NCBI GenBank assembly: GCA_017523725.1
Contig: JAFWVY010000023.1
Span: forward strand, 1-64,000
DNA: 64,000 nucleotides
Reading direction: 5' to 3'
Origin: Bacteroidales bacterium
GTDB taxonomy: Bacteria; Bacteroidota; Bacteroidia; Bacteroidales; UBA4181
The position numbers were made by a program, and so were the translations under genes. The notes under the pieces are model-generated. The model worked only from the letters and a program-made list of their open reading frames with translations. It did not search any database and had not been told where the DNA came from. This document shows positions 33,067 through 52,664 of the stretch, in pieces. Each line of letters begins with the position of its first letter. The stretch's first letter is position 1.

Positions 33067-34284
33067 TCAGACCTTTTCTTGGTTAATAAAAGGATAGCGT
33101 CCGGCATCACCCGTCAACTCGATATGGTACAGACCATGTTCGGTCGTCACCTCGATCACATCGTAGTAAGGAATTCCTATTTCTCTTAAAGTCAGACGTT
33201 TGTATGGGAAATTCCGGTCGATGTTCTCATAGGTGTTCTGGTTGAGTTCGGTGCGCGGCCTGGTGTAAAGATCGTAATTTTGGTCGATATAATCCGGAAT
33301 TTTCGATTCCGGCAGCATCGGCGTGAACTTCTGGTTGTCGTTCTTGGAGACAATGATGTCCACAAACTTGTCGTTCCGGAGGTTGATTTCCACTTCGTTG
33401 ACATTCAGGCAACGCCGAATCTGCGAGAAGGCGTCGGAGATGCGTGTGTCGGCACTGAGGCTGGACATCTGGAAAACATCGTTCCAGCATTCGTGCGAGG
33501 GACAATCTTCGTCGAAAGAGCGGCTGTCGTATACGGCGATGCGGTTGTGCATGCCCTCGTAATGCAGCCATTTACCGGTCAGCGGCGTGAAAAGGCCGGA
33601 GTCCACTTCTTTCTTGTGAAGCAGTTTCATGGCTTCCTGCACCTCTATGGCGCCGATGATCGAGGCGATGACCGGTGTGGTCGGCGTGCGGCCGGCCTGT
33701 TCGTTGCGCTGGGCCACGCCCGCACAGGACAATTGCTGCGAGATATGTTGTTTGGCGTGTTCAGTCAGGCTGCATTCATAGCAGTTTTCGTTCTGCCTGA
33801 AGATGCGTACGTTGCCCGTCAGATTCTCGATGCCGCCGTCGATCCACGGCACGTTGGCCCGCATGCACAGCCGGTTCAGCTGCAGCCGTGCCAGCCGGCT
33901 GTCCAGACAACCGATGACGACATCCATTTTGCGGTAGAGCCCCAGTCCGACTTCGGAGGCCAGATGGCCGCAAACGCACTGTACGTTGATTTGCGGGTTG
34001 ATCTCCCGGATTCTTTCTGCAGCGACTTCGGCTTTGTACAGACCTTTGTCTGCATCTTCCGGGCGGAACAGGATGGAACGCGTGAGATTGGAGAACTCAA
34101 TGGTATCGAAATCGACGATATAGATGTTGCCAACCCCGAACAAGGCCAGATTCTTCAGTGCTTCGTTGCCAAGTGCACCGGCACCGACCACCATGACACG
34201 GGCCTGCCGTACCGTCTCGTTCTTGTACCACGAGAGCAGGTCGAAGACTTCTTTGCCCCAGGTTTGCAGTGTCCCGTTTTCCAT
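33067..34284 (-). CDS. E1-like ubiquitin-activating enzyme (ThiF fold, UBA3-like)
   Basis: 405 residues. The ThiF adenylation domain has GAGALG (34-39), IVDFDTIEFSNLTRS (Asp58, Asp60, Arg69) and Lys84. C168-x2-C171 and C261-x4-C266 are candidate zinc ligands. Cys187 in QQLSCAGVA falls 16 residues after Cys171, where human UBA3 has its catalytic Cys 14 residues after the same pair. TTPVIASIIGAIEVQEAMKL (202-221) is the UBA2/UBA3-type helix. About 100 C-terminal residues look like a beta-grasp ubiquitin-fold domain (KRLTLREIGIPYYDVIEVT), which in eukaryotic E1s binds the E2. Expected role: adenylate and thioester-link the ubiquitin-like protein at 42027-42341. Cytoplasmic; set between tssG and the outer-membrane protein gene. 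Confidence 0.85.
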   Translation of the reverse strand: MENGTLQTWGKEVFDLLSWYKNETVRQARVMVVGAGALGNEALKNLALFGVGNIYIVDFDTIEFSNLTRSILFRPEDADKGLYKAEVAAERIREINPQINVQCVCGHLASEVGLGLYRKMDVVIGCLDSRLARLQLNRLCMRANVPWIDGGIENLTGNVRIFRQNENCYECSLTEHAKQHISQQLSCAGVAQRNEQAGRTPTTPVIASIIGAIEVQEAMKLLHKKEVDSGLFTPLTGKWLHYEGMHNRIAVYDSRSFDEDCPSHECWNDVFQMSSLSADTRISDAFSQIRRCLNVNEVEINLRNDKFVDIIVSKNDNQKFTPMLPESKIPDYIDQNYDLYTRPRTELNQNTYENIDRNFPYKRLTLREIGIPYYDVIEVTTEHGLYHIELTGDAGRYPFINQEKV

Positions 34285-34289
34285 GGCTG

Positions 34290-35456
34290 TTATTTAAGTG
34301 TATAGACCAGGCCGATTTCAATGGTCGGCAGGAAAGTCCTGAGACCGTCCCAGGCACTGTCCGCCGTGTAACCTGTCGCATCTTCGACCGGTTTATGGTC
34401 GATCATCGGTGTTACGGCATATTCACACCGGATGCCGGCTTTGAACAGCAGACTCGATGCGTAGCGCACCGGCCGCAGGCAGCCGGCGGGGATGTAGGTG
34501 CCGAATGCGGCGTGTGCCCACAGGGCGAAAGAACGTGCTTCGGGTTCCGCTGCAACGGTCTCCATATTGACTGGCAGGACGACCCTTCCGGGGGTCTCCT
34601 CGCCATGGGGTGAGACAATCCGATAGTCGGAACTGAGGCAGATCGACGGTGTGACGCCGAATTTGCCGTAAACCGTGATTCGGCTGGACGAAGGCTGGCC
34701 GAAGCAGCATTGTACGGGGAAGTCCAGATATTTGACGGTCATTTTTTCCTTGACACGGTTCAGTGTCTGGTTGTTGTCAAACCAGAAGAACGTGTTTTCG
34801 TCCGGTGGCGCCAGTACGGATATGGCCCGCCAGCCGACGCCGGCTTCCATGGAGAAGGGGAAGTTCAGGCCCCACCGGCCGGTGCCGAAATACAGCGCAG
34901 CCTGTGTGAACCATCTGAAATCCTTGACGGTCATGTCTTCGTTGTCCCGGTCGTAGAGTACCGGTCCGGCGGCCGCGGTGACACCGATGACCGGCGTCCT
35001 GGCGGGCAGGCCGATGAAGAAAGACATGTCCCCGTTCCTGCCGCCCGTCACAGCCTCCTGCGGCCTGTCCTGCCGGGCGGCGCGGTCTAACTGCAGGTTG
35101 TGAAGCGTCATGTTCAGGGCTGTGATGGTATTGTTCAGCGAATCAATCTGGATTTCCTTCTGCATGTACTTTTCGCTCAGCGCTTCGGCTTCGGCCGAGG
35201 CCTGCGTCAGCGTGTCGATCAGCCGGTCCCGCCTGGCGACAGCTGCTTCGAGCGTTTTAATCTGCGCCTGGAGTTCGTCGACGACCTGGTATTTGACATT
35301 TTCCATGTAGTCTTCGACCGTCCCCTTGTAATAGTCCACTTTCAGTTCCTTCCCGTCTTTCGTCCTGCCGTGGATGCTTTGCATCTGCGACTGGGCGCAG
35401 ACCTCGACGGCCATGCAGCACAGGCTCAGCGTAATCAGAAAACAGACGTGTTTCAT
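34290..35456 (-). CDS. Outer-membrane beta-barrel-like protein with coiled coil (T6SS-linked)
   Basis: 388 residues. A signal peptide ends near EVCAQS. Residues ~30-130 are a coiled coil (VDELQAQIKTLEAAVARRD and following heptads), then an alternating barrel-like region to the C-terminus, which ends in IEIGLVYTLK, a typical barrel last strand. It may span the outer membrane, with the coiled coil reaching into the periplasm, and so stand in for TssJ-type envelope anchoring. This role is inferred from the operon position only; no named family is recognised. Gene follows the RING/FHA gene by 20 bp. Confidence 0.6.
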   Translation of the reverse strand: MKHVCFLITLSLCCMAVEVCAQSQMQSIHGRTKDGKELKVDYYKGTVEDYMENVKYQVVDELQAQIKTLEAAVARRDRLIDTLTQASAEAEALSEKYMQKEIQIDSLNNTITALNMTLHNLQLDRAARQDRPQEAVTGGRNGDMSFFIGLPARTPVIGVTAAAGPVLYDRDNEDMTVKDFRWFTQAALYFGTGRWGLNFPFSMEAGVGWRAISVLAPPDENTFFWFDNNQTLNRVKEKMTVKYLDFPVQCCFGQPSSSRITVYGKFGVTPSICLSSDYRIVSPHGEETPGRVVLPVNMETVAAEPEARSFALWAHAAFGTYIPAGCLRPVRYASSLLFKAGIRCEYAVTPMIDHKPVEDATGYTADSAWDGLRTFLPTIEIGLVYTLK

Positions 35457-35476
35457 AACGGAGTCCAAGGTATGCG

Positions 35477-37792
35477 CTATTTGTCTTTTTCGATATAGGT
35501 GAAGGTGGTTGCGCCAATGGTGAAGGCGTCGCCGTGCGACAGCCGGACGACCGAACCTTCTTCCAGCGTCTGGCCGTTGTCGTTCATCACGGTGCCGCCT
35601 GCCAGCGCCTTCGCGAAGGGCAGGTCGTTCTCGATATAGAGTTCCAGTTGCTTTGCCGCGATGTTCTCGCTTTTGTCCCATGTCATGGCGATGACGCAGT
35701 CTGGCGAACTGCCGATCGTGACATGGTGTGCGCCACCGATGGCGTTCATCCATTTGTAGATGGCGATGTCACGTTCTTTGGTGGAACCTTCGACATGGAG
35801 GAAATAATTTTCGGATGCATACTGGACGATGGCGATGATGGCACCGAGCAATGCGGCGTACAGCATAAAACCGTAGACGCCTATGATGTCTTTTTTGATC
35901 AGATAGATAACTGCAAAGGTCAATGCCGCGGCAATCAGGCTTCCAAGCACAGCCTTGCCGGTGGATATCTCCGACTTGACGGCAAGCAGCCAGGTGACGG
36001 CGATGCCGAAGAGCAGCCACGGCACCCAGTCGAGCCACAGGCAGTTGCCCACCTTACCAACGGCGATGATGGCGATGGAACCGATCAGGAAGGCCAGGAA
36101 ACCCATCACGGCGTTGCCGACGGACCGTCCCAGGATTTGCAGAATGCGTCCAACGGTTTTTTTGCGGAACTCTGACAGGAAGCTGAATACCAGTGTGGTG
36201 AAGAAACCCAGCAGCGCGCCTCCCCACAGGAGAGGTGTGATCTTTCCGGCATAGGCAGCTACCTGATCCCGTTGGAACAGGGTCGTGATTTTGCCGATCA
36301 GTCCGTCAAACAGATGGCAGGGCAGAATCAGTTGCAGAACCATCCATGCCAACAGACCGGCGACGAGGCCGCACAGCATCCATTTGGTGAAGTTCGGCGC
36401 GTTCTTGCGGTCGGCCAGATTTTTTTTGTTATAATAATAAATGCCTTCCTTACAGTTGTTTATGCCATATTCCGGGCATCGGTTCTGGTTCTCCTCCCAG
36501 CATTCGATGTGCACGGTATGCTGGCACTTGGTGACGATGACGTCGCCGTCCTCGAAGTCTCCCTTGCAGTAATAGCACTGCTGCAGCACATGGTCTTTCT
36601 GGGCGCGCGACTTGTTGTAGGTCTTGACATGGCGGAGCCGGAACAGCCGGTAGAGGAGGAACGGCAGCAGGAACTGCAGGATGAGGTAAAGGACGGCCAG
36701 GCAGACGAGACCGGCAATCAGACCCTGCAGCAGGTCCGGACGGCCGGCAGCTGCTGCATCTCCGGGAAGGACGACCAGCGGCGCCAGCACAGATCCCAGC
36801 GCATAGGGCATGTCTCCGGTCGCGTTGTACTTGTCGGCTTTCAGCCGCAGGTCCGATGTCTGTCCGTTATAGGTGGTCTTTTCCCGGATGGAATACACCA
36901 GCCGGTAGTCCATGGCGACCGAATCGACGCTGCCGGCAAAAACGGCGGTGAGGGAATCGGCCGAAAAACTCGGGTAGATTTTTCCTTCGTCGGCGCGGTG
37001 GCAGATGAACAGCATCTCATTCTGCATCTCCTGGTCGAGCCGTTCGCCGAAATAGACGCAGTAAATGGCTTTCAGCTGTTCGGGGATGGTGGTGTAATCG
37101 TTGTTCGCGAATTTGAGTTTCGCATCGTAAAAAGAAGCATCGGTGTACTGGTCGATGTCACCGGTAAAGATGAAGAAATATTTGTCGGACAGGCTGTCGG
37201 TGGCCAGTTCGGCGTTGAATCCGACATCGGGCAGATACCGATTTTTTGGCGGCACATTGTTGATTTCCTGAATTTTGGAGATAAGAGCCGAATAAATGGA
37301 CAACTGCTCGTAGGCCTGCGTGGTCATGGCGTCGCTCTTGACGTAATTCTCGATGCTTTCGCCGGGATAGACCCGTTCGGTCGGAGAGATTTCGTCACCG
37401 ATGGCCGCGATGTAGATTTTGGCGGTTTTCGGCAGAGCACTGGCGAATGCCACAATCGATTCTCTGAGCGCCAGATAGTTGGCGAGCGATATGTTGGCAC
37501 TTTTGTCGGCCAGTATGAGGATGTCTATGTTGCGTGAGAAGTCACTGCGCCGACTGATGTCAAGCAGACTGTCGATGCTGAGCGGCGTCTCGGTGCCGGC
37601 GGTCAGTTCTGTGCAGACCAGGTCTCCGATTTCGAGGTCTGGGATGAACTGCTTCTGTCCATTCCGCATGAACTTGAAATCCACGCTGCGGCGGGCGCCG
37701 TTCCCCCGGGCATTGCCGAATTCGATGCTTGTCTGGGCCTGCGTGGCGAGCACCATGCAGCAGAATAGAAACAATAAGCTAATTCTTTTCAT
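35477..37792 (-). CDS. VWA-like / RING-H2-like / polytopic membrane / FHA protein, E3 candidate
   Basis: 771 residues. Signal peptide (1-20). A periplasmic VWA-like domain (~88-300) has ILADKSAN (degenerate MIDAS, Asp96-x-Ser98-x-Asn100) and FFIFTGDID. TM1 lies at ~354-381, followed by a basic stretch that places the next part inside. A RING-H2-like finger follows: Cys406, Cys409, Cys423, His425, His428, Cys431, Cys439, Cys447 (C3H2C3), with CQHTVHIEC and a Pro after Cys439. The last pair spacing is x7 rather than x2. Six more helices follow (~471-658), then a cytoplasmic FHA-like domain (685-768: VTIGSSPDC, HGDAFTIGATTF). With E1, E2, JAMM and Ubl genes alongside, an E3 ligase role is the best guess. 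A TssN/TssR-like structural role is also possible. Confidence 0.75.
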   Translation of the reverse strand: MKRISLLFLFCCMVLATQAQTSIEFGNARGNGARRSVDFKFMRNGQKQFIPDLEIGDLVCTELTAGTETPLSIDSLLDISRRSDFSRNIDILILADKSANISLANYLALRESIVAFASALPKTAKIYIAAIGDEISPTERVYPGESIENYVKSDAMTTQAYEQLSIYSALISKIQEINNVPPKNRYLPDVGFNAELATDSLSDKYFFIFTGDIDQYTDASFYDAKLKFANNDYTTIPEQLKAIYCVYFGERLDQEMQNEMLFICHRADEGKIYPSFSADSLTAVFAGSVDSVAMDYRLVYSIREKTTYNGQTSDLRLKADKYNATGDMPYALGSVLAPLVVLPGDAAAAGRPDLLQGLIAGLVCLAVLYLILQFLLPFLLYRLFRLRHVKTYNKSRAQKDHVLQQCYYCKGDFEDGDVIVTKCQHTVHIECWEENQNRCPEYGINNCKEGIYYYNKKNLADRKNAPNFTKWMLCGLVAGLLAWMVLQLILPCHLFDGLIGKITTLFQRDQVAAYAGKITPLLWGGALLGFFTTLVFSFLSEFRKKTVGRILQILGRSVGNAVMGFLAFLIGSIAIIAVGKVGNCLWLDWVPWLLFGIAVTWLLAVKSEISTGKAVLGSLIAAALTFAVIYLIKKDIIGVYGFMLYAALLGAIIAIVQYASENYFLHVEGSTKERDIAIYKWMNAIGGAHHVTIGSSPDCVIAMTWDKSENIAAKQLELYIENDLPFAKALAGGTVMNDNGQTLEEGSVVRLSHGDAFTIGATTFTYIEKDK

Positions 37793-37793
37793 A

Positions 37794-39428
37794 TCAATTT
37801 CTTTTTCTCCTTAACCATTCTTTCATTTGATTCATTGTCACGACCGCCTTCACGCCGTCTTCGGGAGGAATGCAGATATCCAACTCTTCATCCGTCCGGT
37901 ACACGACGTAGAACAATTTGCCGCTGAGCTGCGAAGCATAGGCAGTCGCAATGGCGTCGGTTCCAGCCGTGGTATGGACGACCAGGCATCCGACGGTGTC
38001 ACCGTTGCTGTATGGCAGGCAGTTCTCTACGAAAAGCGTCCGGGAAATCTTGTGTCCGCTGAAATAGCCGATGACGCCTTCAGATGAGTTGTATATGAGG
38101 TCGTTGATTTGATTGATTGCTTTTCCGGAAAGACTGATGCCGCACAAGTTCCCGCTTTCGACGGGAATCTTCATGTAGTGCGGATTTTCGGCGCTCTGTT
38201 CATCGTCTGCGGTGACAGGCTGCCGGTTTCGTTCGCGTTCGGCCTGCCGCGCCTGTTTGTACATTTCCTCGAAGGAGAACCACTTCCTGACATCGTCCTT
38301 GTTGTTCATCCGTCCGTCCGTCTGCGGCGTGAAACAACCCAGCTGGAGCTCCATGCTGTTGGTGTCGATGACCAGGGCGATCAGCCGGTTGGCAAATTCG
38401 GTATAGACCAGTTGGCGCTGGACGATCAGATCCTGGTTCGACAGGAAGAGGCCCAGTCCGGGATGGGAGTGGATCCAGCCGGTAAGCACATAGTCCCTGC
38501 CGGTTTTCGAGGCCAGGCTGTTGATGAGCGAACCCATGCTGACGCCGATTTTCTTTCCGAAGTTGAGGCTGTATTCGCCGAAATCGGCGTCGTCGCCGGG
38601 CTCTACCATGTATTCCACGCTGATGTCAAAGCGGTCCTGGCTTCCTTCGGCGTAATCCCAGCAACCGACCAGGTAACATCCCGTTTCGTTGGTCCGTTCG
38701 CCGTTCTCCAGCGAACGGTTGAAAAACGAATAGACTTTCTTGACAAGGTCGATGCTGAAATACATCCGGTTGATGCCCGTGTTTTCAAAGACTTCGTTCA
38801 AATCGAACGTCAGGTATTCTTCCGGATGGGACAATACATGCTGCAGACCTTTGGCGTAATGTTCCGACGTGTCTTCGATGACGGTGAAAACATCGTCATC
38901 CGTCTGTTTTTTCCGGAACCAGAATCTCTGTCCGGTTTTCTTTTTCCGTACCATGAGCACCAATATGGCAATGGCGCAAAGCAACAATGCAATGATGATG
39001 TTCTGCATAGTGACGAAACCCTTTCCTTCCTTGCCGGGCGTTCCGGCAGCGGCCGGGTCTTCTTCGGGTGATGTGCTATTGTCCGTCCCGGCCGGCTTGA
39101 GCCGGACGGCGATGCAAAGCTGGTGCTCCGCGTCGTTGAACGTGCAGTCGAGGAAGATTTCGCCGTTGCGGTCGGACAGCCGTTCGATGGGGAAGGTATA
39201 GGTGCCCGGCATGAAGAGGCACGTGCTGTCCTGGTTCCATGCAAAAGCTTCGCAGACCGGGGCGCATCCGCTGATGGCGGCTCTTGAGAATCCCAGCCTT
39301 CCGGACGGTACGCTGATGGTCAACGTCCGGCCGTCATAGGTCGCAGTCGGCCCCTCGGCGCGGCATATGGCCGGCAGCAGCAGAGAGACTGCCAGAACAA
39401 CCGATATGATGCATGAGCGGTGTTTCAT
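37794..39428 (-). CDS. Membrane-anchored JAB/JAMM isopeptidase
   Basis: 544 residues. A signal peptide (1-24), a periplasmic domain of about 115 residues and a single helix (142-160) followed by RKKK place the rest in the cytoplasm. The JAMM metalloprotease motif is complete: Glu248 in NETG, His320, His322, Ser330 and Asp333 in HSHPGLGLFLSNQD (H-x-H-x7-S-x2-D). A second, motif-less MPN-like region follows (~410-530, with GVIGYFSGHKI). JAMM enzymes cleave isopeptide bonds or mature ubiquitin-like proteins; here it would remove or process the Ubl. It ends 1 bp before the RING/FHA gene. Confidence 0.88.
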   Translation of the reverse strand: MKHRSCIISVVLAVSLLLPAICRAEGPTATYDGRTLTISVPSGRLGFSRAAISGCAPVCEAFAWNQDSTCLFMPGTYTFPIERLSDRNGEIFLDCTFNDAEHQLCIAVRLKPAGTDNSTSPEEDPAAAGTPGKEGKGFVTMQNIIIALLLCAIAILVLMVRKKKTGQRFWFRKKQTDDDVFTVIEDTSEHYAKGLQHVLSHPEEYLTFDLNEVFENTGINRMYFSIDLVKKVYSFFNRSLENGERTNETGCYLVGCWDYAEGSQDRFDISVEYMVEPGDDADFGEYSLNFGKKIGVSMGSLINSLASKTGRDYVLTGWIHSHPGLGLFLSNQDLIVQRQLVYTEFANRLIALVIDTNSMELQLGCFTPQTDGRMNNKDDVRKWFSFEEMYKQARQAERERNRQPVTADDEQSAENPHYMKIPVESGNLCGISLSGKAINQINDLIYNSSEGVIGYFSGHKISRTLFVENCLPYSNGDTVGCLVVHTTAGTDAIATAYASQLSGKLFYVVYRTDEELDICIPPEDGVKAVVTMNQMKEWLRRKRN

Positions 39429-39440
39429 GTCCGGCGCCGG

Positions 39441-40196
39441 TTAGATGGAAGGCAGTTCCTCCTGGGGTTGCTGGGTTGTCTGGGCCTTTTTGAGCTGTTT
39501 CTTGATTTTCAGTTTCTGCATGACCATGTTGAACGCGATGAACACCATGGCGGCTGCCGTGATAATCTTGAAAATCATGTCGCTGAGCGATTTGCTGATG
39601 ATGTCGGTGGTCGAGATGCGTGTGTAGGTCTCCTTGACGGCATTCCATGTGGCGGTCAGGGCCTCGTTGTCATCGAAGATCTGCCGGTTGCTGTTGTATT
39701 CCACAGTTGCTTCGCTGTTGAAATATTCTTCGGCTTCTTTCTTGACGAGCTTCAGCGAATCGATGCGCTTGTTGGCGACATAGCGCTCGGCCTGTTGCTG
39801 CATGACCTGCAGCCGCGCCAGATAGGTGTCGAACTTTCCGGAGAGCTTGTCGATAACCTCCTGCTGTGCCCTGGCGGCCTTCAGCTCCTCAATGTGTTTC
39901 CCGATCTGCTGGTACAGGTCGGTGTAGTTCACATAGATTTGATGGAGGTTCTTCTGGTAGCGGATGATCTCGCTGTAGTCGCTGTAACACGATTCCACCA
40001 GCTTGATGTGCGCCTTGTAGGTATTTTCGTACCGGTCTGCGTCTTCGGCTGTGACAATCTTGTTGTTCAGTTCGACAAGCTCTTTGTAATATCCTTCCAG
40101 TTCGGCTTTGACGTACTCATCCTGGGCCCGGCTGACGGCAGGCAGGGCTGTAAGCAGTACGGCAAGAAGACAGGCGGTACCCAGTATTTTTTTCAT
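39441..40196 (-). CDS. Periplasmic coiled-coil protein with C-terminal membrane helix (T6SS-linked)
   Basis: 251 residues. A signal peptide ends near VSRAQ. Long helical, coiled-coil-prone periplasmic part (~25-200), then one membrane helix (~208-226, MIFKIITAAAMVFIAFNMV) and a short basic cytoplasmic tail with KKQLKKAQ. Type I topology suits a strut between inner membrane and periplasm. The layout recalls Bacteroidetes TssO/TssP membrane-complex proteins, but I cannot confirm homology. Its neighbours are the 397-residue exported protein and the JAMM gene, 12 bp away on each side. Confidence 0.6.
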   Translation of the reverse strand: MKKILGTACLLAVLLTALPAVSRAQDEYVKAELEGYYKELVELNNKIVTAEDADRYENTYKAHIKLVESCYSDYSEIIRYQKNLHQIYVNYTDLYQQIGKHIEELKAARAQQEVIDKLSGKFDTYLARLQVMQQQAERYVANKRIDSLKLVKKEAEEYFNSEATVEYNSNRQIFDDNEALTATWNAVKETYTRISTTDIISKSLSDMIFKIITAAAMVFIAFNMVMQKLKIKKQLKKAQTTQQPQEELPSI

Positions 40197-40208
40197 GCGT
40201 CGGAACGT

Positions 40209-41402
40209 TTATTTGATGAGTTTCTTGGCGGTTTCGTAATTGTTGAGAATCTTGGAATCCAACCGGCTGGCGCACGATTGCGACAATCCTCTGATGGTGG
40301 CGTCGGTGGCGCTGACGAGGCTGTCGAAGGCCGCTTTCTGCGAGGCCTTGGTGGCTTCGTCCCGGGCGGAGATCCAGTCGTTGGCCAGGCCGTTGAGCCG
40401 GCTCGTGGCTGCTCTGATCTCGGAGTTCAACGCGGCGGGATCGCACGGTGCCGGAGCTTCGGCGGCGGCGCCACCGCCGGCCGAGGTGTCGTAGGCCTTG
40501 ATCCGGTCCATGCAGCTCATCAGGTCGTCATAGGCATACTGCAGTTCTTCGCAGCCGCTGTTGTCGAAACGGCGGGCGTCGATCTTGGAGAATTGCTCAA
40601 CCAGCAGTTCCTTGCATTTTGCCAGCAGTGCGCGGCCCGATTTCTGGAGTTCTTCCATCTTGGCTTCACCGGCGGCGAAAACCGACAGATATTCCTTGGC
40701 AATGACCAGCAGCTGCTCGTTCTCCTTGCAGGTGTCGATGGTCAGATTGATCTCAATCTCAATGTCGGAGCCGATGTAATTCAATACTTTGCCTTTAATC
40801 ATCGGCATGGGGTTCTTGAGGATGACATACACCTTCTTGGCCCCTTCCTCCAGCTTGAAAGATATTTCCATCTCCGATTTCCCGTCCAGCGGAAGAATCT
40901 GACGGTCGATGGGTTTGGACAGTTTCATCGGCGAGGTCAGTTCGCATCCGTCGTAATTGCAGCCGCGGGCGTCTGCAAACGTCTCGACGGAGGAGTCGTA
41001 CAGGTTGAGGAAACTGATCTGTTCGTTGAACGTCGCGGTGGATTTGAAGGCACCGCCCCGTTTCTTGAAATAATCCTTGAAATCTTCAATTTTGATTTTG
41101 TTCTGCGGCAGCCACACGAATTCGTTGGCCCCGGCCGCGGCTTTCGCCGGCTGTGCTTTCTTGCCTTTCCCGGCCGGTTCTTCCGGTTTCGGGGCGCTCA
41201 GTTTGAACGTCATGACGCGGTCGGTCTTGCTGAACTGTGCCGTGAGTTCCAGGTCGACCGAAGGGATGCGGTCGTTGTAGCCCTTGACGGTGATGGTCTG
41301 CGTAACAGGCTGGTCCGGTTCGAGGTTGAAGGTGTAAGCGGATTCCGCGAATGCCATGAAGGGCATCGCGGCCAATACTGCGGTTGCTAATTTCTTGATC
41401 AT
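40209..41402 (-). CDS. Exported protein of unknown function (T6SS-linked)
   Basis: 397 residues with a signal peptide ending at MAFAES and no other membrane segment, so probably periplasmic. The N-terminal half is beta-rich; a low-complexity patch (GKGKKAQPAKAAAGA) sits near residue 80. The C-terminal ~170 residues are helical with several Cys and a Gly/Ala/Pro-rich insert. No family recognised. Lying 8 bp after the E2-like gene and 12 bp before the coiled-coil membrane protein, it probably belongs to the envelope part of the secretion machine. Confidence 0.6.
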   Translation of the reverse strand: MIKKLATAVLAAMPFMAFAESAYTFNLEPDQPVTQTITVKGYNDRIPSVDLELTAQFSKTDRVMTFKLSAPKPEEPAGKGKKAQPAKAAAGANEFVWLPQNKIKIEDFKDYFKKRGGAFKSTATFNEQISFLNLYDSSVETFADARGCNYDGCELTSPMKLSKPIDRQILPLDGKSEMEISFKLEEGAKKVYVILKNPMPMIKGKVLNYIGSDIEIEINLTIDTCKENEQLLVIAKEYLSVFAAGEAKMEELQKSGRALLAKCKELLVEQFSKIDARRFDNSGCEELQYAYDDLMSCMDRIKAYDTSAGGGAAAEAPAPCDPAALNSEIRAATSRLNGLANDWISARDEATKASQKAAFDSLVSATDATIRGLSQSCASRLDSKILNNYETAKKLIK

Positions 41403-41410
41403 GATATTGT

Positions 41411-42007
41411 TTAGTTTAGATTGTTTCTGAGTTCTTTAATCCATCCGTTGGGCTCGGCCTGCTCCAGCACCCATTCGGCCACTTTCAGGTCTTCCGGGAA
41501 TGGCGGTGTATTCTGTGCGTGGTATTTCTCGTATTTCAGATACAGCATCACGCGGTCGACATACCAGGCCAGGTCGGTGAACGTGCCGCAGGCCGGCGTG
41601 TTCAGACACACATGGCCGGCAAAGTCGCCGTAATACCGGATGTTCGGATGCCACGGATGCGGAATCTCCCGTCCGTCCCCGTCGGTCGTCAGAAACCGGA
41701 ATTCCAGTTTGCTGTCGATGGCGGGATAGTTGTTCGGAATTTGGATGACCATGCGGAATTCGTCTCCGAAAACCGGCCGGTTCCATCCGTCTCCGTCTGC
41801 AGGAAGGACGCCGCAGAACGAGTGCACCTTGAAAACGACCTCGTACATGGTGGGGAGATGGTCGGCATTGCGGCGCCTGACGGTATAGGCAATGTCCGGT
41901 TCGTCCCTGAACCTTGCGTCCATGGCGGTCCACTCATACATCAGCCTGCGGTTCTTGCCCGTGAAGCGGATGTTTCTATACCGGTCTATTTCCTGGTGCG
42001 GATCCAT
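41411..42007 (-). CDS. E2-like ubiquitin-conjugating enzyme
   Basis: 198 residues, UBC fold. The N-terminal helix (RRLMYEWTAMDARF) is followed by strands, including FRMVIQIPNNYPAIDSKLEF, which parallels the F-x-I-x-F-P-x2-YP-x(3)-P core of E2s. Then comes His120-Pro121-Asn122, the HPN motif that builds the oxyanion hole, and Cys134 in GHVCLNT, corresponding to the catalytic Cys of ICLD in canonical E2s. The HPN-to-Cys distance is four residues longer than usual. It would carry the Ubl, encoded 19 bp upstream, as a thioester. Cytoplasmic; start at 42007. Confidence 0.88.
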   Translation of the reverse strand: MDPHQEIDRYRNIRFTGKNRRLMYEWTAMDARFRDEPDIAYTVRRRNADHLPTMYEVVFKVHSFCGVLPADGDGWNRPVFGDEFRMVIQIPNNYPAIDSKLEFRFLTTDGDGREIPHPWHPNIRYYGDFAGHVCLNTPACGTFTDLAWYVDRVMLYLKYEKYHAQNTPPFPEDLKVAEWVLEQAEPNGWIKELRNNLN

Positions 42008-42026
42008 GACGGTGGAATCTTTTTTT

Positions 42027-42341
42027 TTATCCGGCAATCGGATCCGAAATGATTTCGAGTGTCTCTCCCGGCTTGACATTGTAGTCGAGCAGCGATTTCC
42101 TGGATCTGCCGACCCTGGGCTGCAGGATGATGTCACGTCCGGTGGCTTCGTCCTTTTTGCCGAAGAAATACTCCGTCGGCACATAGTCCACCATCTCGGG
42201 CATGTCGAAAATCCGGGTGCCGGTGTTGTCAGCGGCTTTCCGCAGATTGCTCATCAGCGTCTCAAGTTCGGTGTTCGGATCGGTCACCTTGAATTTGATG
42301 GTTTTGTTCTTGTACCTTAAAAATACGAAAAAATCGTCCAT
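42027..42341 (-). CDS. Ubiquitin-like protein with C-terminal Gly
   Basis: 104 residues. A beta-grasp layout: FFVFLRYKNKTIKFKV is the first hairpin, then a helix, then the end LLDYNVKPGETLEIISDPIAG (positions 84-104). The last 21 residues align without gaps to ubiquitin 56-76: LxDYN, then TL, two hydrophobic strand residues, and a final Gly at the Gly76 position. Gly75 is Ala here. No residues follow the Gly, so no processing is needed before E1 adenylation. About 25 extra residues lie between helix and last strands. The E2 gene follows by 19 bp. YukD-like relatives are possible. Confidence 0.82.
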   Translation of the reverse strand: MDDFFVFLRYKNKTIKFKVTDPNTELETLMSNLRKAADNTGTRIFDMPEMVDYVPTEYFFGKKDEATGRDIILQPRVGRSRKSLLDYNVKPGETLEIISDPIAG

Positions 42342-42361: not shown

Positions 42362-42943
42362 CTATTTCAAATCTTTCAATATTTCGAATTCCTCGCCCGA
42401 CAACTCGCCGAGATCGTGGCAGCACATGGCAATCAAAGCGGTCTTGACGGCTTCCGAGGTCCGGTCCTGCCGTGCATCCGCCCGACGGCCCCACGCGTCT
42501 GGCCTTCCGTTTCCATTCTCGGTGCCGGCTTTCTGTTCGTTCAGCGCGTCCGCGACGGACATGTCGTTCTGGAACCCGAGCGAGGCCATGATTTTCAGTT
42601 TCATCCGGCTGTCGAAGATGCTGGGACTTGCCTGCCGTCCGGCGATGAGGTTGTCCAGCCAATGCCAGGACTCCGTCTGCCGTAACCGGGTCATCACCTG
42701 CCGCTGCAGTTCCCGGTAAAAACTTTCGTCGAATTGTTCCGGACGGTCGTCGTGAGCGTTGATACGCGACATGTAACGGGTCTGCAATACAGCATCGTAG
42801 GCCCTTGAGATAACTTTCTGTATGTTGATACGGAAGTTGACCTGGGACCATGTGGGAATGCCGAAATCCTCCTTCAGCCGCATCGGTGAGACGTGCGGAA
42901 GATACTCGAAAAAGCGGTCTTTTGTATTGATGACTCTTCTCAT
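42362..42943 (-). CDS. Unknown T6SS-linked cytoplasmic protein
   Basis: 193 residues, no signal peptide or membrane segment. The N-terminal two thirds look all-helical, with FGIPTWSQVNFRINIQKVIS and a Trp pair (SWHWLDNL); a polar low-complexity stretch (TENGNGRPDAWGRRADARQD) precedes a C-terminal helix pair with two adjacent Cys. No family recognised. It lies 20 bp before the Ubl gene and 7 bp after the 169-residue gene. It could be a target or cofactor of the conjugation system, a TssA-like adaptor or an immunity protein; nothing in the sequence decides. Confidence 0.55.
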   Translation of the reverse strand: MRRVINTKDRFFEYLPHVSPMRLKEDFGIPTWSQVNFRINIQKVISRAYDAVLQTRYMSRINAHDDRPEQFDESFYRELQRQVMTRLRQTESWHWLDNLIAGRQASPSIFDSRMKLKIMASLGFQNDMSVADALNEQKAGTENGNGRPDAWGRRADARQDRTSEAVKTALIAMCCHDLGELSGEEFEILKDLK

Positions 42944-42950
42944 GCCGGTC

Positions 42951-43460
42951 TTATTTCTCCATCATTATTACTTCTTTTTCACGTTTCAGCAGGACGCCTG
43001 TCGTCGCATCAAAATGCACGGTTTCGAGGATCTTCGGAGCGGGGCAAAGCGTGAAACGCCATTCGGCGATGCCTTCGCGCGTTTTGCCGCGGCCGATGGA
43101 TGTCACTTCCTGCAGGGAAATCTTTTCTTCTCTCAATCGCTGTGCCATCTGGTCCCATGACACCGGAAAATCTGCATCTGTGTCATGTTCTGCGACAATT
43201 CCGCCGAATTCGTCATATTCTTTCCATACACCGATGCGGGTGCCTCCTTTTTTCAGGAAATGTCCCTCTTCCTTCAAGGTCAGCGTGCTGGGATAATACG
43301 AACGTCCCCGGCAGACCATGTCCGGGAAGGCTGGAATGTTGTAGGTCACGTATTCTTCATCGTATTCCAGCATCTTAACGGTTTCCCCGTCCTCCCTGCG
43401 CAGCACGGCGGCACCGTTGTCGTAATGTTCCTCGAAGAAATATAAGTCGAACTTTTCCAT
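42951..43460 (-). CDS. Unknown protein after the metallopeptidase effector
   Basis: 169 residues, no signal peptide. Mixed alpha/beta, acidic, with beta-rich text such as VLLKREKEVIMMEK at the end and GIVAEHDTDADFPVSWDQM in the middle. No family recognised. It begins 12 bp after the metallopeptidase stop. That position suits an immunity protein or effector chaperone, but an effector acting in the periplasm would normally need an exported immunity protein, which this is not. Confidence 0.55.
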   Translation of the reverse strand: MEKFDLYFFEEHYDNGAAVLRREDGETVKMLEYDEEYVTYNIPAFPDMVCRGRSYYPSTLTLKEEGHFLKKGGTRIGVWKEYDEFGGIVAEHDTDADFPVSWDQMAQRLREEKISLQEVTSIGRGKTREGIAEWRFTLCPAPKILETVHFDATTGVLLKREKEVIMMEK

Positions 43461-43472
43461 GGTACTGCCGGG

Positions 43473-45860
43473 TTAATACATTTTATTCCAGATGGCCTGC
43501 GCCTTGGTACGCATGATATTCCACTGGGCCGGTCCCAGCGAATAGATACGGCTGGAGTAGTCCATCGCGTTGGTGGTGGTTTTATATTTGAATGTGAATG
43601 GACTTTCGTTATGGAAACTGTGACGCAGATTCAACTGGTGCAACAGTTCATGGCCGAGAACCTCCCTCGTACTCCAGTCCTTGCTGCTGGTTTCGATGGA
43701 TTTTTTGAACAATATAATGGTAGGCGGATCGGCTAAACTCGCACCGGAAGCCAGCTTGCATAATTCGTCCACGATGAATACGCGGATGAACGATTTGTTG
43801 ATATTCAGAGGTTCGAGATGTTTTTCCAGCACTTCGTTCAGTGTCGTTTCGTTTTCGTCATCTAAATATAGTCTGCCGATGTTGTTATTCTCATCGAGAA
43901 ACGGCTGGATGAGCGACCTCGGGATGTTCATGGATATTTTCTGTTCCTTTGCGATGATACCGGCCTGTGACAGCAACTGGTAATGCCGGTCTCTTTCCGG
44001 CGACCAACCCTCCTGCATGGAGGTGTTATATGCATCTTCGCTGTCATCCACGCCGTTGCCGAGGCCGCTGGTGACACTGACCAGCAGGATGTGAACCGGG
44101 ATGGGGGGCCACACACGGAGTTCAAGCAGTCCGACCCAGGTGCCCTTTTCGTTTTTGGCGACAATGTATTCCGTTGTGTTGCACTGGCCTGTGACCCGGA
44201 TGTTTAGACGGTTCTTCTTGGGCGAGGTGACTTTTTCCGGATCAACCTTTATGTTCTCCGAGGTGGGGGTGAAGGTGATCTTGTCGAAATCACCGTGGTA
44301 GAGCATCTGGACATCCGCCTCGTCGTAGATGGTCGTGAAGAAGCGTTTTCGCTCGTTCTTGCTGCCGAATTGCGCCATGCCCAGTACCGGGATGGGATAG
44401 CCCATGAACTTGCCTCTGCCGCTGTCGTACACCCGGATGCGTCGGTTGACGAGATAGTCCTCACAGTACAGATGCAGCACTCCGTCATCGCACGGTTTGT
44501 CGACTTTCATCACCTTGTCCTCATAGATGCCGTAAGTGGGCAGTTCTTTTTCGCCGGCTTCCGTAACGGTCAGCGGTTCTTCTACAATCTTTCCGGCCGG
44601 CGTCATTTCTATGAAGAATCCGGCGGCCCGTTTGTTCAGGATGGGACTGTTCAAGAGTTCGTAGGCGTTGATGTCCTTGTTCTCGAGGAAATCATCGTAG
44701 ATGCCCCATTTGTGTTTCTTGTTCTGGTCCTTGATGACAGAGTATCCGTAATATTCGGATGCATACCTTTCGGCCTGCAACTTTTCGTTCTTGATTTCGC
44801 TGTTGAACGTGCTGTCTCCCCACTGACGGGCTTTGGCCGATTCCCATTTGCCGGTCTTCTGGTTGACACCGAGCAGGAAGTACGGGCGGAATTTTTTACT
44901 CAGGATGCTGAGATATTCGTTCTTGTCTTTCTCCTTCGTGGCGCGGTCGTATTTGTCGAGTGTCATGTCGAACTGCAGCTTCTCGATTTCCTTGCGGAAT
45001 TCATAAACTTTCAGTTTCTCGAGTTTCCCGTTGTAGTAGCTGAAAGTAAATCGTTGACCATACAGGTCGGCTGAGACGATCTTCTTCGTGGCGTATTCTA
45101 CGGAGCCCTTAGTATAGGTGTTGTCCAGACCATGGATGGTGGCTGGCGAGGCCAGTTTCTTCTCGTCCATGAGACCGATTTTGTCCCAGAAAGCATTCAC
45201 CATACCTCTTGTCAAAACGTACTTCTTCCGGACATCTTCGTTGATTTCGGCTTTCTGGGTGAAAGACTCTCCGGCCGACCATTCCCATTGTCTCCTGGGC
45301 GCTTCGACCTCACTCAGTACATAGACTTCTTCTTCTTTTGACAGGGTTATTTCGCGCAGGGTCGTATTCTCATACTTGATGACGACTTTCATTGAGATGC
45401 CCCGGACGTCCCTTTTGAAAGTCACCGTCTTGGTCTTCAGAGATACATCCACATCGTAATGCAGCGCCTTGTATGCCCCACCATCCTTGACCACGGGGAC
45501 CTTCACGCCATTCCGCAGGATGTAGTATCGGCAGAAATAACAGGGATCCTGCTCGATGTCCTTGACGAAATTTTTATCGAAATCATCGGCTTCAATGCCG
45601 TTTTCCTTGCCGTCCCAGTTGCAGTACATTTTGACCGATGGACTGGCGCACATGTATTTGCCGATGTTGGTGTCGAAGTTGTCGGCGTTCTCGTTGTCTT
45701 CGCGCTTGTCGTCGTAGTCGCCCATCATGCGGAACCAGTCGAAGCCGTACTCCCCTTTCCAGTCCGGTATGGGACGGAACTGGACGAGGCAGAACTTGCC
45801 GTTCTCCTGCTGCTCGTTCTGTTGCTGCTGCTTGCGTTGGTCGGATCCTATTCCTGCCAT
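43473..45860 (-). CDS. Metzincin-type metallopeptidase, probable T6SS effector
   Basis: 795 residues. The C-terminal zinc motif HELLHQLNLRH (737-747) fits the metzincin HExxHxxxxxH pattern with Asn in place of the usual Gly, and NAMDYS (764-769) gives the Met-turn. No signal peptide. The N-terminus, after a Gln-rich start, has FRPIPDWKGEYGFDWFRMMGD (28-48), which may be a delivery domain for loading on the spike. The gene follows vgrG and the PAAR-like gene with small gaps, the usual place for cargo. Expected action: proteolysis in the target cell; substrate unknown. Confidence 0.7.
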   Translation of the reverse strand: MAGIGSDQRKQQQQNEQQENGKFCLVQFRPIPDWKGEYGFDWFRMMGDYDDKREDNENADNFDTNIGKYMCASPSVKMYCNWDGKENGIEADDFDKNFVKDIEQDPCYFCRYYILRNGVKVPVVKDGGAYKALHYDVDVSLKTKTVTFKRDVRGISMKVVIKYENTTLREITLSKEEEVYVLSEVEAPRRQWEWSAGESFTQKAEINEDVRKKYVLTRGMVNAFWDKIGLMDEKKLASPATIHGLDNTYTKGSVEYATKKIVSADLYGQRFTFSYYNGKLEKLKVYEFRKEIEKLQFDMTLDKYDRATKEKDKNEYLSILSKKFRPYFLLGVNQKTGKWESAKARQWGDSTFNSEIKNEKLQAERYASEYYGYSVIKDQNKKHKWGIYDDFLENKDINAYELLNSPILNKRAAGFFIEMTPAGKIVEEPLTVTEAGEKELPTYGIYEDKVMKVDKPCDDGVLHLYCEDYLVNRRIRVYDSGRGKFMGYPIPVLGMAQFGSKNERKRFFTTIYDEADVQMLYHGDFDKITFTPTSENIKVDPEKVTSPKKNRLNIRVTGQCNTTEYIVAKNEKGTWVGLLELRVWPPIPVHILLVSVTSGLGNGVDDSEDAYNTSMQEGWSPERDRHYQLLSQAGIIAKEQKISMNIPRSLIQPFLDENNNIGRLYLDDENETTLNEVLEKHLEPLNINKSFIRVFIVDELCKLASGASLADPPTIILFKKSIETSSKDWSTREVLGHELLHQLNLRHSFHNESPFTFKYKTTTNAMDYSSRIYSLGPAQWNIMRTKAQAIWNKMY

Positions 45861-45863
45861 GAC

Positions 45864-46985
45864 TTAACAGTTAAAACTGCAAATTTCTGTCTCTTCGCAA
45901 CCGATGGCCTCACAGTCGTTGGTCAAGGCCTCGTAAACTGCCTGCGACAGCTTGTCGGCATCGTACCGGAGACAGTCTCCGGGATTGGTGATATAGAGGT
46001 ATTCGATGACAATGGCCCGGTCGCCGAGCGCATTGTCATTGCTCACAAACGGATGCGATATCGAACGTCTTACGCCGTTGCACTTGAGTCCGGTCGCGGC
46101 GGCAATCCGGCGGCTGATGCGGCAGGCGGCGCGCAGTGTTTCTTTCTGCTCCGGATCCAGCCGGAAGGGATAGCTGCTGCCGCGGTTGAAAATCTTACGG
46201 TCGTCCTTGCCGTCCACGCTGCGGACGATGGTGTGCACGCCCGTGCTGTAGCCGTCCGCCGCACGGTAGGATGTGCAGGTTTCACCGGTGGCCTCCATGG
46301 TGCACATCTCTCCCTGATGGGGGCAGTCCGGGGCGGTGCAACTCTTGATGTCGAGGAAACGGCACGGTGCCGCGCTGATTTCGTGTGCGATGAAATAGAG
46401 TGCGTCCTGATTTTCCGGCGCGCCGTATTTCAGCCGGAGGTCGCGGCACGGCTTGCCGGGCTGTCGGCACATGACATAAGCCCTTTCGTGGTGCGGACAG
46501 TCGCCACGTTCGCCGTTCCCGGCCTCGCAGGTGAGCGGTGCCTTGTTCAGCTGGGTGAATTTTCCGCAGATATGGTTTTCGTCCCGGAAGGAGCATGCAT
46601 ATTTTTTATCTCGCAATGCGGGTGTGCCGTGTCCGGCGGACAGGTCACGGTTGAGGGCACAGGTCTCGTCGCACCGTCCGATGTCCCCGACCGCAGCTTG
46701 TCTCGCAAGCTGGCCGGAAACCTTCTGACATGCAGGCATCTTGAGCGGAAAAACCTGTATGCGGGCATTCTCATCGTTGCATTGTGCGATGAACCGGGCT
46801 CCGATTTTCTTGGCGAGGTCTTCCTGTCTCAACCGGATGTCCGGGTTTGCACCGGTGACGGTGACGCTCCTCTCCGGACAAAAGAGAATATCGCACGCCA
46901 TGCACCCGGCGAGGGAAGTCTCCGGATAGCTCTCGGCGCTGACGACCGTGATGGCAGGCTGATATTTCTTGTGTTCCCAGTCCAT
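45864..46985 (-). CDS. Cysteine-rich protein with amidase_3-like motifs, probable T6SS effector
   Basis: 373 residues with about 25 Cys. Motifs in the order of N-acetylmuramoyl-L-alanine amidases (amidase_3) can be made out: His119 in SAGHG, Glu135 sixteen residues later, His201 in ALYFIAHEISAAP (compare DLFISIHANA), TGVHTIV (compare GVETYY), and Glu328 in AIVIEYLYITNP (compare VLVELGFITNP). Two CPH-x(5-8)-C-x(6-8)-C repeats (163-180, 221-237) lie around the third motif. No signal peptide. Placed between the PAAR-like tip and the metallopeptidase, it is a good candidate for a peptidoglycan-cleaving effector. Homology is by eye only. Confidence 0.5.
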   Translation of the reverse strand: MDWEHKKYQPAITVVSAESYPETSLAGCMACDILFCPERSVTVTGANPDIRLRQEDLAKKIGARFIAQCNDENARIQVFPLKMPACQKVSGQLARQAAVGDIGRCDETCALNRDLSAGHGTPALRDKKYACSFRDENHICGKFTQLNKAPLTCEAGNGERGDCPHHERAYVMCRQPGKPCRDLRLKYGAPENQDALYFIAHEISAAPCRFLDIKSCTAPDCPHQGEMCTMEATGETCTSYRAADGYSTGVHTIVRSVDGKDDRKIFNRGSSYPFRLDPEQKETLRAACRISRRIAAATGLKCNGVRRSISHPFVSNDNALGDRAIVIEYLYITNPGDCLRYDADKLSQAVYEALTNDCEAIGCEETEICSFNC

Positions 46986-46986
46986 G

Positions 46987-47418
46987 TTACGAAACGATTT
47001 CTATGATGCCGCCAAAGGCGCAGTTCAGTTTGCAGGTATTGAGCAGCGCCGGCTGGTTCTCGATAAGCAGGTCGGTTTTGGGCGGAGCCCATGGTGCGGG
47101 GATGACCGGGGTGCAAGGCATCGGTGTCAGGGTGCCCAGATTGGCCGCCGTGGCCGCTGCCACCTGCGGGTTGGCCATCGACTGGCACATGCCGAACGGC
47201 GGGATGTTAACCATGGGTTCCTTGTCCATGATATTGCCCATCGGCACGCCGCCTATCTGGACGGTACGCGAGGGCAGCACCACCAGCGAGGAGGGCGCCA
47301 TGCCGAAACTGCACTTCATGTTTACGCCGCTGCCTACGAATTTCTGGACAACGGGTGTGCGCGGTATGTCGGGGCCTTGCTCCAGCGCCTGCTTGATTTC
47401 GAGAAAGAAACTAGACAT
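46987..47418 (-). CDS. DUF4280 PAAR-like spike tip protein
   Basis: 143 residues. The family text is clear: VNIPPFGMCQSMANPQVAAA, then TPMPCTPVI, and ENQPALLNTCKLNCAFGGII at the end. DUF4280 proteins are PAAR-like and are thought to cap the VgrG spike and hold cargo. Four Cys could bind metal at the tip. It begins 5 bp after vgrG and is followed 1 bp later by the Cys-rich gene, which supports joint loading of cargo. Confidence 0.85.
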   Translation of the reverse strand: MSSFFLEIKQALEQGPDIPRTPVVQKFVGSGVNMKCSFGMAPSSLVVLPSRTVQIGGVPMGNIMDKEPMVNIPPFGMCQSMANPQVAAATAANLGTLTPMPCTPVIPAPWAPPKTDLLIENQPALLNTCKLNCAFGGIIEIVS

Positions 47419-47423
47419 GTGCG

Positions 47424-49769: not shown

Positions 49770-49781
49770 GGCTAGATTAGG

Positions 49782-50288
49782 TTAGAATTCTGTGTTTGCA
49801 CGTCTCCGGAGGGTTTCCAGATATGAATCCAGAGCAGCGGCGTCTTTCCGGAAGTCGGCACTGCTCGGCAGCAGTTGCAAGGCCAGCTTTGAGGCACCGT
49901 CGGCACAAGGCATGAACATGCCGGGCTGAATGGTGATGCGGGCACACATCTGGGAGGTGGTGGTGCTGTTGAAGTATTCCCTGATGTCGATGCAGTAGGC
50001 GTGCGAGAAGGAATAGACCTTCGATTCGGGGAACGGACTGCATCTCCACCGACTGCTTTCCGAGTCGAATACCGCAAAACCGTCGTGTGGCAGACACGAG
50101 GAGAGCCATTCATACATGGCCGGGATGCCACCGGGGGGCGTGACAATGTCGAAAATGAGCTGCGCTCCTTTCAACCGCGAGTTCGGACGTCCCAGCTCGT
50201 CTGTATCCACATACATTTCGTACTCGAATTCCAGAATCCGGTAGGTGTTGATTCCGTGAATGCTCAATTCTCCTGAAACTGCTGCCAT
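49782..50288 (-). CDS. tssD: Second Hcp-like tube protein
   Basis: 168 residues. It keeps the Hcp layout seen in the neighbouring Hcp: an N-terminal strand pair, CLPHDGFAVFDSESSRW where the other has a loop, and FSHAYCIDIREYFNSTTTSQ aligning with FTDAYCVDFVELWEDKMGHY. A C-terminal helical extension of about 40 residues is absent from the other Hcp. It may be a tube-end adaptor between Hcp and VgrG, a specialised cargo-carrying Hcp, or a sheath-tube initiator. The start at 50288 is the first ATG after the hairpin at 50302-50336. Confidence 0.7.
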   Translation of the reverse strand: MAAVSGELSIHGINTYRILEFEYEMYVDTDELGRPNSRLKGAQLIFDIVTPPGGIPAMYEWLSSCLPHDGFAVFDSESSRWRCSPFPESKVYSFSHAYCIDIREYFNSTTTSQMCARITIQPGMFMPCADGASKLALQLLPSSADFRKDAAALDSYLETLRRRANTEF

Positions 50289-50301
50289 GGTTTTTCGATT
50301 G

Positions 50302-50336
50302 AAAAAGAGCAAAGGCAAAATGAATTGCCTTCGCTC
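50302..50336 (-). terminator. Hairpin with T-run after hcp (partial terminator or processing site)
   Basis: On the minus strand GAGCGAAGGCA pairs with TGCCTTTGCTC across an 8-nt loop (50307-50317 with 50326-50336, one mismatch), followed by five T residues (50302-50306). It lies between the main hcp and the next T6SS gene. It probably lowers downstream expression or protects the 3' end of hcp mRNA, giving the large excess of tube subunit. Confidence 0.7.
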
Positions 50337-50351
50337 TTCAGGATTGACAAA

Positions 50352-50744
50352 TTATGCCCACTCGTTCGTGTAGGTGACGGAGCCGTTGGTGATTTCCCTG
50401 CAAGAGAGGACAATCTCCTCGTAGTGGCCCATCTTGTCTTCCCACAGTTCGACGAAGTCGACGCAGTAAGCATCCGTGAAGGAGATTTTCTTCATCAGAT
50501 TGCCGCTCTTGGTTTCGTTGAAGACGATAGCGCCGTTCTTTGCCAGATTCGGGGCGATCATCCAGTTCAGCAGATCCGGATTGCCGTCGTTCAAGGCTTT
50601 CACGCGGATCGTAATCTTGCCGCCGCGCGGGATGCCGGACATCTGGCCTTCGACGTCGGTCGCCTGGTTGAAGGAATAGGTAACCATCATGACCTCGCGT
50701 TCGGCGAGACCGTCAACTTGTAATGAAACAGGTGTTGTTGCCAT
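50352..50744 (-). CDS. tssD: T6SS tube protein Hcp
   Basis: 130 residues, typical of Bacteroidetes Hcp. No signal peptide. Family-like features are the N-terminal strand VSLQVDGLAEREVMMVTYSF, the conserved RGGKITIRVKAL and the FTDAYCVDFVELWEDK strand region. Hexameric rings stack to form the tube expelled by sheath contraction. It follows tssC by 40 bp and is followed by the hairpin at 50302-50336, consistent with high expression. Confidence 0.88.
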   Translation of the reverse strand: MATTPVSLQVDGLAEREVMMVTYSFNQATDVEGQMSGIPRGGKITIRVKALNDGNPDLLNWMIAPNLAKNGAIVFNETKSGNLMKKISFTDAYCVDFVELWEDKMGHYEEIVLSCREITNGSVTYTNEWA

Positions 50745-50784
50745 AATTGTAAATGTTTAAAGGTTTTTGAAAAAAAATTTGAAA

Positions 50785-52161: not shown

Positions 52162-52170
52162 AGTGTATGA

Positions 52171-52623: not shown

Positions 52624-52664
52624 ATCTGTGATATTTAAATGTTTATAAATTATTGGTTATCTGC

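Follow-up and report, generated by a model that had tools for sequence, protein, structure and literature searches.

Genes for a predicted ubiquitin-like conjugation pathway are a co-inherited part of one lineage of type VI secretion systems in Bacteroidales

Introduction

Why does a type VI secretion system (T6SS) operon contain genes for what appears to be a ubiquitin-type pathway? The question is raised by a 64,000-nucleotide stretch of DNA (the window) from a Bacteroidales bacterium (GenBank assembly GCA_017523725.1, contig JAFWVY010000023.1, positions 1 to 64,000), in which an earlier note, made from the sequence alone, had placed genes for a ubiquitin-like protein (Ubl), an E2, an E1, a JAMM isopeptidase and a RING-type membrane protein between the effector and baseplate genes of a T6SS. 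In pathways of this family the modifier passes from the E1 to the E2 and on to a target, RING proteins act as E3 ligases and JAMM proteins act as isopeptidases. We find that the association of this gene set (the Ub module) with the T6SS is not due to chance: the module is a fixed, co-inherited part of the locus, and it marks one T6SS lineage rather than Bacteroidales T6SSs at large.

Five ubiquitin-type genes lie within a T6SS operon

The window lies on contig C65 of a 2.35 Mb Bacteroidales genome (G000) and carries one T6SS operon, with all genes described here on the minus strand. The operon starts with the genes for ClpV, TssB, TssC, two Hcp proteins, VgrG and PAAR and four variable genes, and continues with those for the Ubl, the E2, a 397-aa periplasmic protein, a 251-aa protein with a coiled coil and a transmembrane segment (TM), the JAMM protein, the RING protein, an outer-membrane-type protein, the E1, TssG, TssK, TssE and TssF. 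The five ubiquitin-type genes are where the earlier note had put them, at 33067-42341 and 1-20 bp from their neighbours, and intergenic gaps stay at 1-20 bp from TssG through the gene preceding the Ubl; three further genes, which had gone unmentioned, are interleaved with the five. The motifs read from the sequence are present as well, namely HPN plus Cys134 in the E2, GAGALG plus Cys187 in the E1, H-x-H-x7-S-x2-D in the JAMM protein, the zinc ligands of the RING and the terminal Gly of the Ubl.

The E1-like activating enzyme (405 aa; 33067..34284) consists of a ThiF/MoeB domain (Pfam ThiF, 4e-54), with GAGALG at residues 34-39, and a C-terminal extension of ~140 aa. It has zinc pairs at C168/C171 and in the C261/H264 region, its Cys187 is invariant (70 homologues), and a four-sequence profile matches UBA1, UBA7, the SUMO E1 and MoeB in the PDB at 1e-26 to 7e-30. 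Two further ThiF-type genes are found elsewhere in the genome. The ubiquitin-conjugating-like E2 (198 aa; 41411..42007) likely starts at 42007 rather than at the longest ATG, because the resulting 257-aa open reading frame overlaps the Ubl gene; its HPN (residues 120-122) and Cys134 are invariant (82 homologues).

The folds, on which the earlier note had let its calls stand or fall, agree with these assignments. As a single sequence the E2 matches UQ_con weakly (0.007); a 40-sequence profile finds UBE2K in the PDB (4e-8), and an AlphaFold2 model (predicted local distance difference test, pLDDT, 93.7) has a UBC-like fold and matches UBC enzymes by Foldseek (1.4e-6). The Ubl (104 aa; 42027..42341; ending ...DPIAG) matched no Pfam family, and its sequence matches are either weak (0.01-0.1 against single ubiquitin) or, as with the low E-values against polyubiquitin, inflated by repeats, so that its identity is judged by the fold model, a beta-grasp (AlphaFold2, pLDDT 90) with structural matches to the talin head, ubiquitin, SUMO and a bacterial Ubl. 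In 76 of 81 homologues of the Ubl, AG or PG are the last residues before the stop codon, and tails past the Gly with a recognisable A/P-G are confined to loci bearing the JAMM gene. The E2 is duplicated in tandem in one locus (L047), and Ubl-like genes are duplicated in two others (L082 and L089), in each of which one copy lacks the C-terminal Gly.

The JAMM/JAB protein (544 aa; 37794..39428) is predicted to have a signal peptide, a periplasmic stretch, a TM at residues 142-160 and a cytosolic JAMM domain (PF01398, 7.7e-5), whose E248 and H320-x-H322-x7-S330-x2-D333 are invariant in all complete homologues. The membrane RING protein (771 aa; 35477..37792), a candidate E3, would comprise a periplasmic vWA-like part, one TM, a cytosolic RING-H2 domain (residues 406-447), about six further TMs and a C-terminal, degenerate FHA domain (691-766); both topologies derive from crude hydropathy. 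Its Pfam matches are weak (RING 1e-3, FHA 7e-3), as are its best PDB matches, which are to Arkadia-type RING-H2 E3s (0.003); the eight zinc ligands of the C3H2C3 pattern (C406, C409, C423, H425, H428, C431, C439 and C447) are all invariant in 73 of 73 homologues. Phospho-binding by the FHA domain was rejected, as the Arg and Ser needed for it have for the most part disappeared.

The module is inherited together with the baseplate genes

When the E2 alignment was used in a single scan of GTDB contigs, 123 relatives emerged, and the loci of 80 of these 123 were analysed; the source genomes are mostly metagenome-assembled, and the carriers include rumen Prevotella, Alistipes, Bacteroides, Mediterranea, Barnesiella and Parabacteroides. 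Among the commensals that carry the module are Bacteroides mediterraneensis, Mediterranea massiliensis, Barnesiella An22 and Parabacteroides distasonis An897. T6SS genes lie at most 10 kb from the E2 in 77 of the 80 loci, the remaining three being contig pieces of 6.7-11.5 kb. Among the loci longer than 20 kb (n = 52), the Ubl, E1 and RING genes are present in all 52, PAAR in 51, TssG in 50 and JAMM in 40, and Ubl, E1, RING and baseplate genes occur together in 50. Ub and T6SS genes are co-directional in every locus that holds all of them.

Two gene orders are conserved around TssG-TssK-TssE-TssF. Architecture I, that of the window and most Prevotella, reads VgrG-PAAR-cargo-Ubl-E2-x-x-JAMM-RING-(OMP)-E1-TssG-TssK-TssE-TssF, in which OMP is the outer-membrane-type gene, and architecture II (21 loci, from Alistipes, Bacteroides, Mediterranea and others) reads PAAR...E1-TssG-TssK-TssE-TssF-Ubl-E2-397-251-RING. 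The E1 gene directly precedes TssG in both; the remaining Ub genes of architecture II come after TssF, and JAMM is absent from 21 of 21 of its loci, compared with its presence in 53 of the 59 other loci. Tree distances for the Ub module and for TssG/TssK correlate with r of 0.84-0.97 when all loci are taken and of 0.96-0.99 when architecture I is taken alone, and 0 of 999 permutations gave values as high. That the genes are mere neighbours or an assembly artefact was rejected on the strength of 80 independent loci, and carriage by phage or plasmid was rejected because the E2 has no relative in viral contigs or plasmids. The earlier note had proposed looking for co-occurrence with TssF, TssG and TssK in the same order; this holds for the E2 loci, in two orders, with the qualification that most TssN-type Bacteroidales T6SSs lack the module.

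The module and TssN are found in different T6SSs

TssNQOPR has been published as the sole type of membrane complex in Bacteroidota T6SSs, and TssN as having a ubiquitin-like fold on which TssK docks (PMC10781749). In a sample of 393 genomes of the order, with TssN scored over its cut-off, TssC (PF17541) was found in 17 genomes and TssN in 8. The sampled T6SS genomes with the E2 are G000, G057, G251 and G395, and none of the 393 holds both the E2 and TssN, the absence of TssN having been tested in these whole genomes rather than in those behind the 80 loci. A genome-wide search found no TssN (PF17555) in the window's genome, and TssK and TssG, which flank TssN in T6SSiii of the TssNQOPR kind, are adjacent in the window. 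The idea of a TssN hidden in the RING protein or the Ubl was rejected, with an hhalign probability of about 1% or less.

On a tree of TssC, which has long branches and a midpoint root, a 100/100 branch separates the Ub T6SSs from all TssN T6SSs; of the Ub T6SSs, that of G057 comes closest to the TssN side, and G267, which has neither TssN nor Ub genes, is nested among the Ub T6SSs. The T6SS locus of G267 (L129/L130) carries Ser/Thr kinase and kinase-FHA genes, and two genomes with neither TssN nor the E2 (G256, L131; G339, L133) have kinase-FHA, PP2C and FHA genes beside their T6SS. These kinase/FHA loci (with PP2C only in G256 and G339) resemble the gene set of the threonine phosphorylation pathway, which positively regulates T6SSs (PMC5995506). 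One position in T6SS biology is thus taken by phosphorylation parts in some relatives and, elsewhere, by ubiquitin-like ones.

T6SS-free operons and the origin of the module

An E1-Ubl-E2-JAMM-RING operon with the vWA-TM-RING version of the RING protein occurs free of a T6SS in G463, G557 and G027, genomes with no TssC; G463 and G557 (loci L143-L146) belong to another order of the class. In G463 this operon lies beside genes for an nSTAND NTPase and an ion channel, and in G027 (L016/L017) its neighbours are SrfB and a putative virulence-factor gene (Virul_Fac, SrfC-type), while another JAB gene follows downstream. Another genome without TssC (G005; 85% complete) has an E2 at a contig end (L010/L020) that is 43% identical to that of the window. 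On a tree of the E1, whose outgroups are too distant for rooting, G463, G557 and G027 form one clade, with G057 as the nearest T6SS-linked neighbour. The simplest history, with other rootings possible, is a single uptake of a free Bacteroidota RING operon by a T6SSiii lineage, followed by inheritance and one loss in G267.

Neighbouring T6SS and envelope genes

The run holds a complete T6SS set (TssB, C, D, E, F, G, H, I, K and PAAR), and the earlier description of the flanks as T6SS genes is borne out by matches for TssC, TssD, TssE, TssK, VgrG, a DUF4280 PAAR and ClpV. TssF (29161-30909) is identified by a profile match (1e-31) to the TssF of a TssN-type locus, itself a weak PF05947 match, TssE (30922-31401) by GPW_gp25 (9e-9), TssK (31420-32286) by TIGR03353 (9e-9) and TssG (32291-33064) by homology and gene order. 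The spike, tube, sheath and ATPase genes (46987..55202), which encode PAAR/DUF4280, VgrG, two Hcp/TssD (PF17642, 1e-27), TssC (PF17541, 3e-105), TssB and ClpV/TssH, were assigned with Pfam and NCBIfam. Between PAAR and the Ubl lie the four variable genes (42362..46985; 193, 169, 795 and 373 aa), which had no Pfam matches and are probable effector/immunity cargo; in other loci this interval is swapped for other genes and its flanks are constant.

The three interleaved genes encode envelope-type proteins. A 388-aa signal-peptide protein (34290..35456), of outer-membrane barrel type with an N-terminal coil, occurs in part of the family only (12 matches among the 80 loci), and the gene at its position in G057 matches Pfam OMP_b-brl_2 (3e-8). 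The 251-aa periplasmic coiled coil (39441..40196) has a C-terminal TM at residues 207-225, and the position of its gene is kept in 27 homologous loci. The 397-aa protein (40209..41402), secreted or periplasmic to judge from a signal peptide seen by eye, belongs to no known family and had no Pfam match; in the Prevotella group, the genes for this protein and for the 251-aa one have diverged too far for profiles to assign them. Homology of the three to TssO-R found no support, with no Pfam match in a search that covered the operon's envelope proteins and 16 homologues and was not extended one by one to the whole genome. The operon's envelope proteins are the sole envelope candidates found in the locus.

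Discussion

What, then, does the module do? The reading we favour, and consider reasonably probable, is that it is a dedicated, co-inherited Ubl-conjugation pathway of one Bacteroidales T6SSiii lineage, in which an inner-membrane RING ligase tags a part of the baseplate or envelope. The E1 would adenylate the C-terminal Gly of the Ubl, which would be handed to Cys134 of the E2; the E2 would be recruited by the cytosolic RING of an inner-membrane protein whose vWA-like part is periplasmic and whose FHA fold is cytosolic, and the Ubl would be joined at the membrane to a T6SS part, either a baseplate protein or an envelope protein of the operon. Such attachment may gate docking, assembly or firing, and the membrane-tethered JAMM protein, where present, would take the Ubl off or trim Ubl precursors. 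That the RING sits in the membrane, that the E1 gene adjoins TssG, that TssN is absent and that G267 has kinase genes all suggest that the target is the machine itself, in its baseplate or envelope, and speak less for cargo or defence. The earlier note had likewise proposed that the pathway modifies a T6SS part, an effector or an envelope protein to control assembly or firing; modification seems plausible to us, and control gains indirect support from the replacement of the module by kinase/FHA genes in the nested T6SS of G267.

Several observations weigh against this interpretation. Shared ancestry accounts for part of the co-inheritance signal, the RING is weak by profile (1e-3), which qualifies its putative E3 role, and the FHA domain of the same protein is mostly without the usual Arg and Ser. 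Reversal is not essential to architecture II, which lacks JAMM, and the operons of G463, G557 and G027 indicate that the chemistry needs no T6SS. More tentatively, the module may belong to a second, non-TssNQOPR envelope complex, whose membrane parts carry the RING ligase and the JAMM protein and in which covalent Ubl attachment drives baseplate docking. If so, a contractile injection machine would use ubiquitin-like modification as one of its working steps. The Ub lineage is without TssN where this was tested, in contrast to the published view of TssNQOPR as the only Bacteroidota type.

A permanent structural role for the Ubl seems unlikely. Joined for good to an envelope protein as a baseplate docking domain, the Ubl would be a covalent stand-in for the ubiquitin-like domain by which TssN docks TssK in canonical T6SSiii. 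In favour of this are the absence of TssN from genomes with a Ub T6SS, the published ubiquitin-like fold of TssN with TssK docked on it (PMC10781749), the dispensability of JAMM in architecture II and the constant retention of E1, Ubl and RING in loci longer than 20 kb. However, TssN has no profile similarity to the Ubl or the RING protein, the retention of JAMM in 53 of the 59 loci outside architecture II argues for reversibility, and kinase-type T6SSs are also without a recognisable TssN, yet have no Ubl. Tagging of cargo, whereby effectors or spike proteins would receive the Ubl for loading or be held inactive until delivery, is suggested by the place of the Ubl and E2 genes straight after the variable effector cassette in architecture I, but we think it quite unlikely: architecture II has the Ubl after TssF and the E1 before TssG, both away from the effectors, and effectors vary whereas the machinery is conserved, so a common substrate is not evident.

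It is improbable that the module is an anti-phage Ubl operon, Bil- or CBASS-like (CBASS, cyclic-oligonucleotide-based anti-phage signalling system), that merely happens to sit in a T6SS locus. Sets of E1, E2, JAB and Ubl are known in defence, a T6SS-free relative stands beside nSTAND and ion-channel genes, and the E1 weakly matches PADLOC E1-E2 models; yet the E2, Ubl and RING have no PADLOC match, the E2 has no match in viral contigs or plasmids, nearly all loci are interleaved in a T6SS operon, and the module and baseplate trees agree. Sulfur-carrier or cofactor chemistry of the ThiS/MoaD kind, with no protein conjugation, would fit an E1 of MoeB/ThiF type and a Ubl with a single C-terminal Gly, but is highly improbable, as cofactor synthesis has no use for a true E2 with HPN and Cys, a RING or a membrane JAMM, and the two other ThiF-type genes in the genome could cover the cofactor need.

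Conjugation of the Ubl to the T6SS machine, the reading we favour, would give bacterial Ubl systems a concrete job beyond phage defence. In culturable commensals this job could be assayed through what the T6SS secretes and kills, and what bacterial RING ligases do would become open to testing. It also suggests that a large group of gut and rumen bacteria may control or build the T6SS by a form of ubiquitin tagging.

Comparison with known systems

The window resembles Bacteroidota T6SSiii (GA1-3; TssNQOPR) in its TssC (PF17541), TssD (PF17642), TssB/E/F/G/H/I/K and PAAR, but its genome lacks TssN, its run has no TssO-R match, it has the Ub module along with different envelope genes, and its TssC falls across the 100/100 branch from TssN-type TssC. 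Burroughs, Iyer and Aravind (2011) reportedly predicted prokaryotic RING/E1/E2/JAB/Ubl operons, whose parts list is shared with the window, with the 40 of 52 long loci that have JAB and with the operons of G463, G557 and G027; the window's set differs from those predicted in its rearranged order, its interleaving with T6SS genes and its co-inheritance with the baseplate. Searches of open-access text yielded no report of a T6SS combined with a Ubl pathway, an earlier remark on T6SSs in subscription papers (e.g. Burroughs 2011) being possible.

BilABCD consists of an E1, an E2, a JAMM protein and a Ubl (PMC11354881). Its Ubl is double, its E2 is of the CEHH type and it lacks a RING, whereas the window has a single 104-aa Ubl, an HPN-type E2 with Cys and a RING. 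The E1/E2/JAB chemistry is also shared by Cap2/Cap3 of CBASS and by the type 6 operons of Iyer 2006, which often have E2-E1 fusions (PMC1779556); in the window, by contrast, the parts are all separate, the Ubl is free and there is a RING. CBASS, with its CD-NTase and effector, is not matched by the window, where the neighbours are T6SS genes. The PpkA/PppA/Fha threonine phosphorylation pathway is likewise a writer/eraser pair with an FHA protein encoded with a T6SS, and kinase-type relatives of the window's T6SS exist; in place of the kinase and phosphatase, the window has a Ubl cascade.

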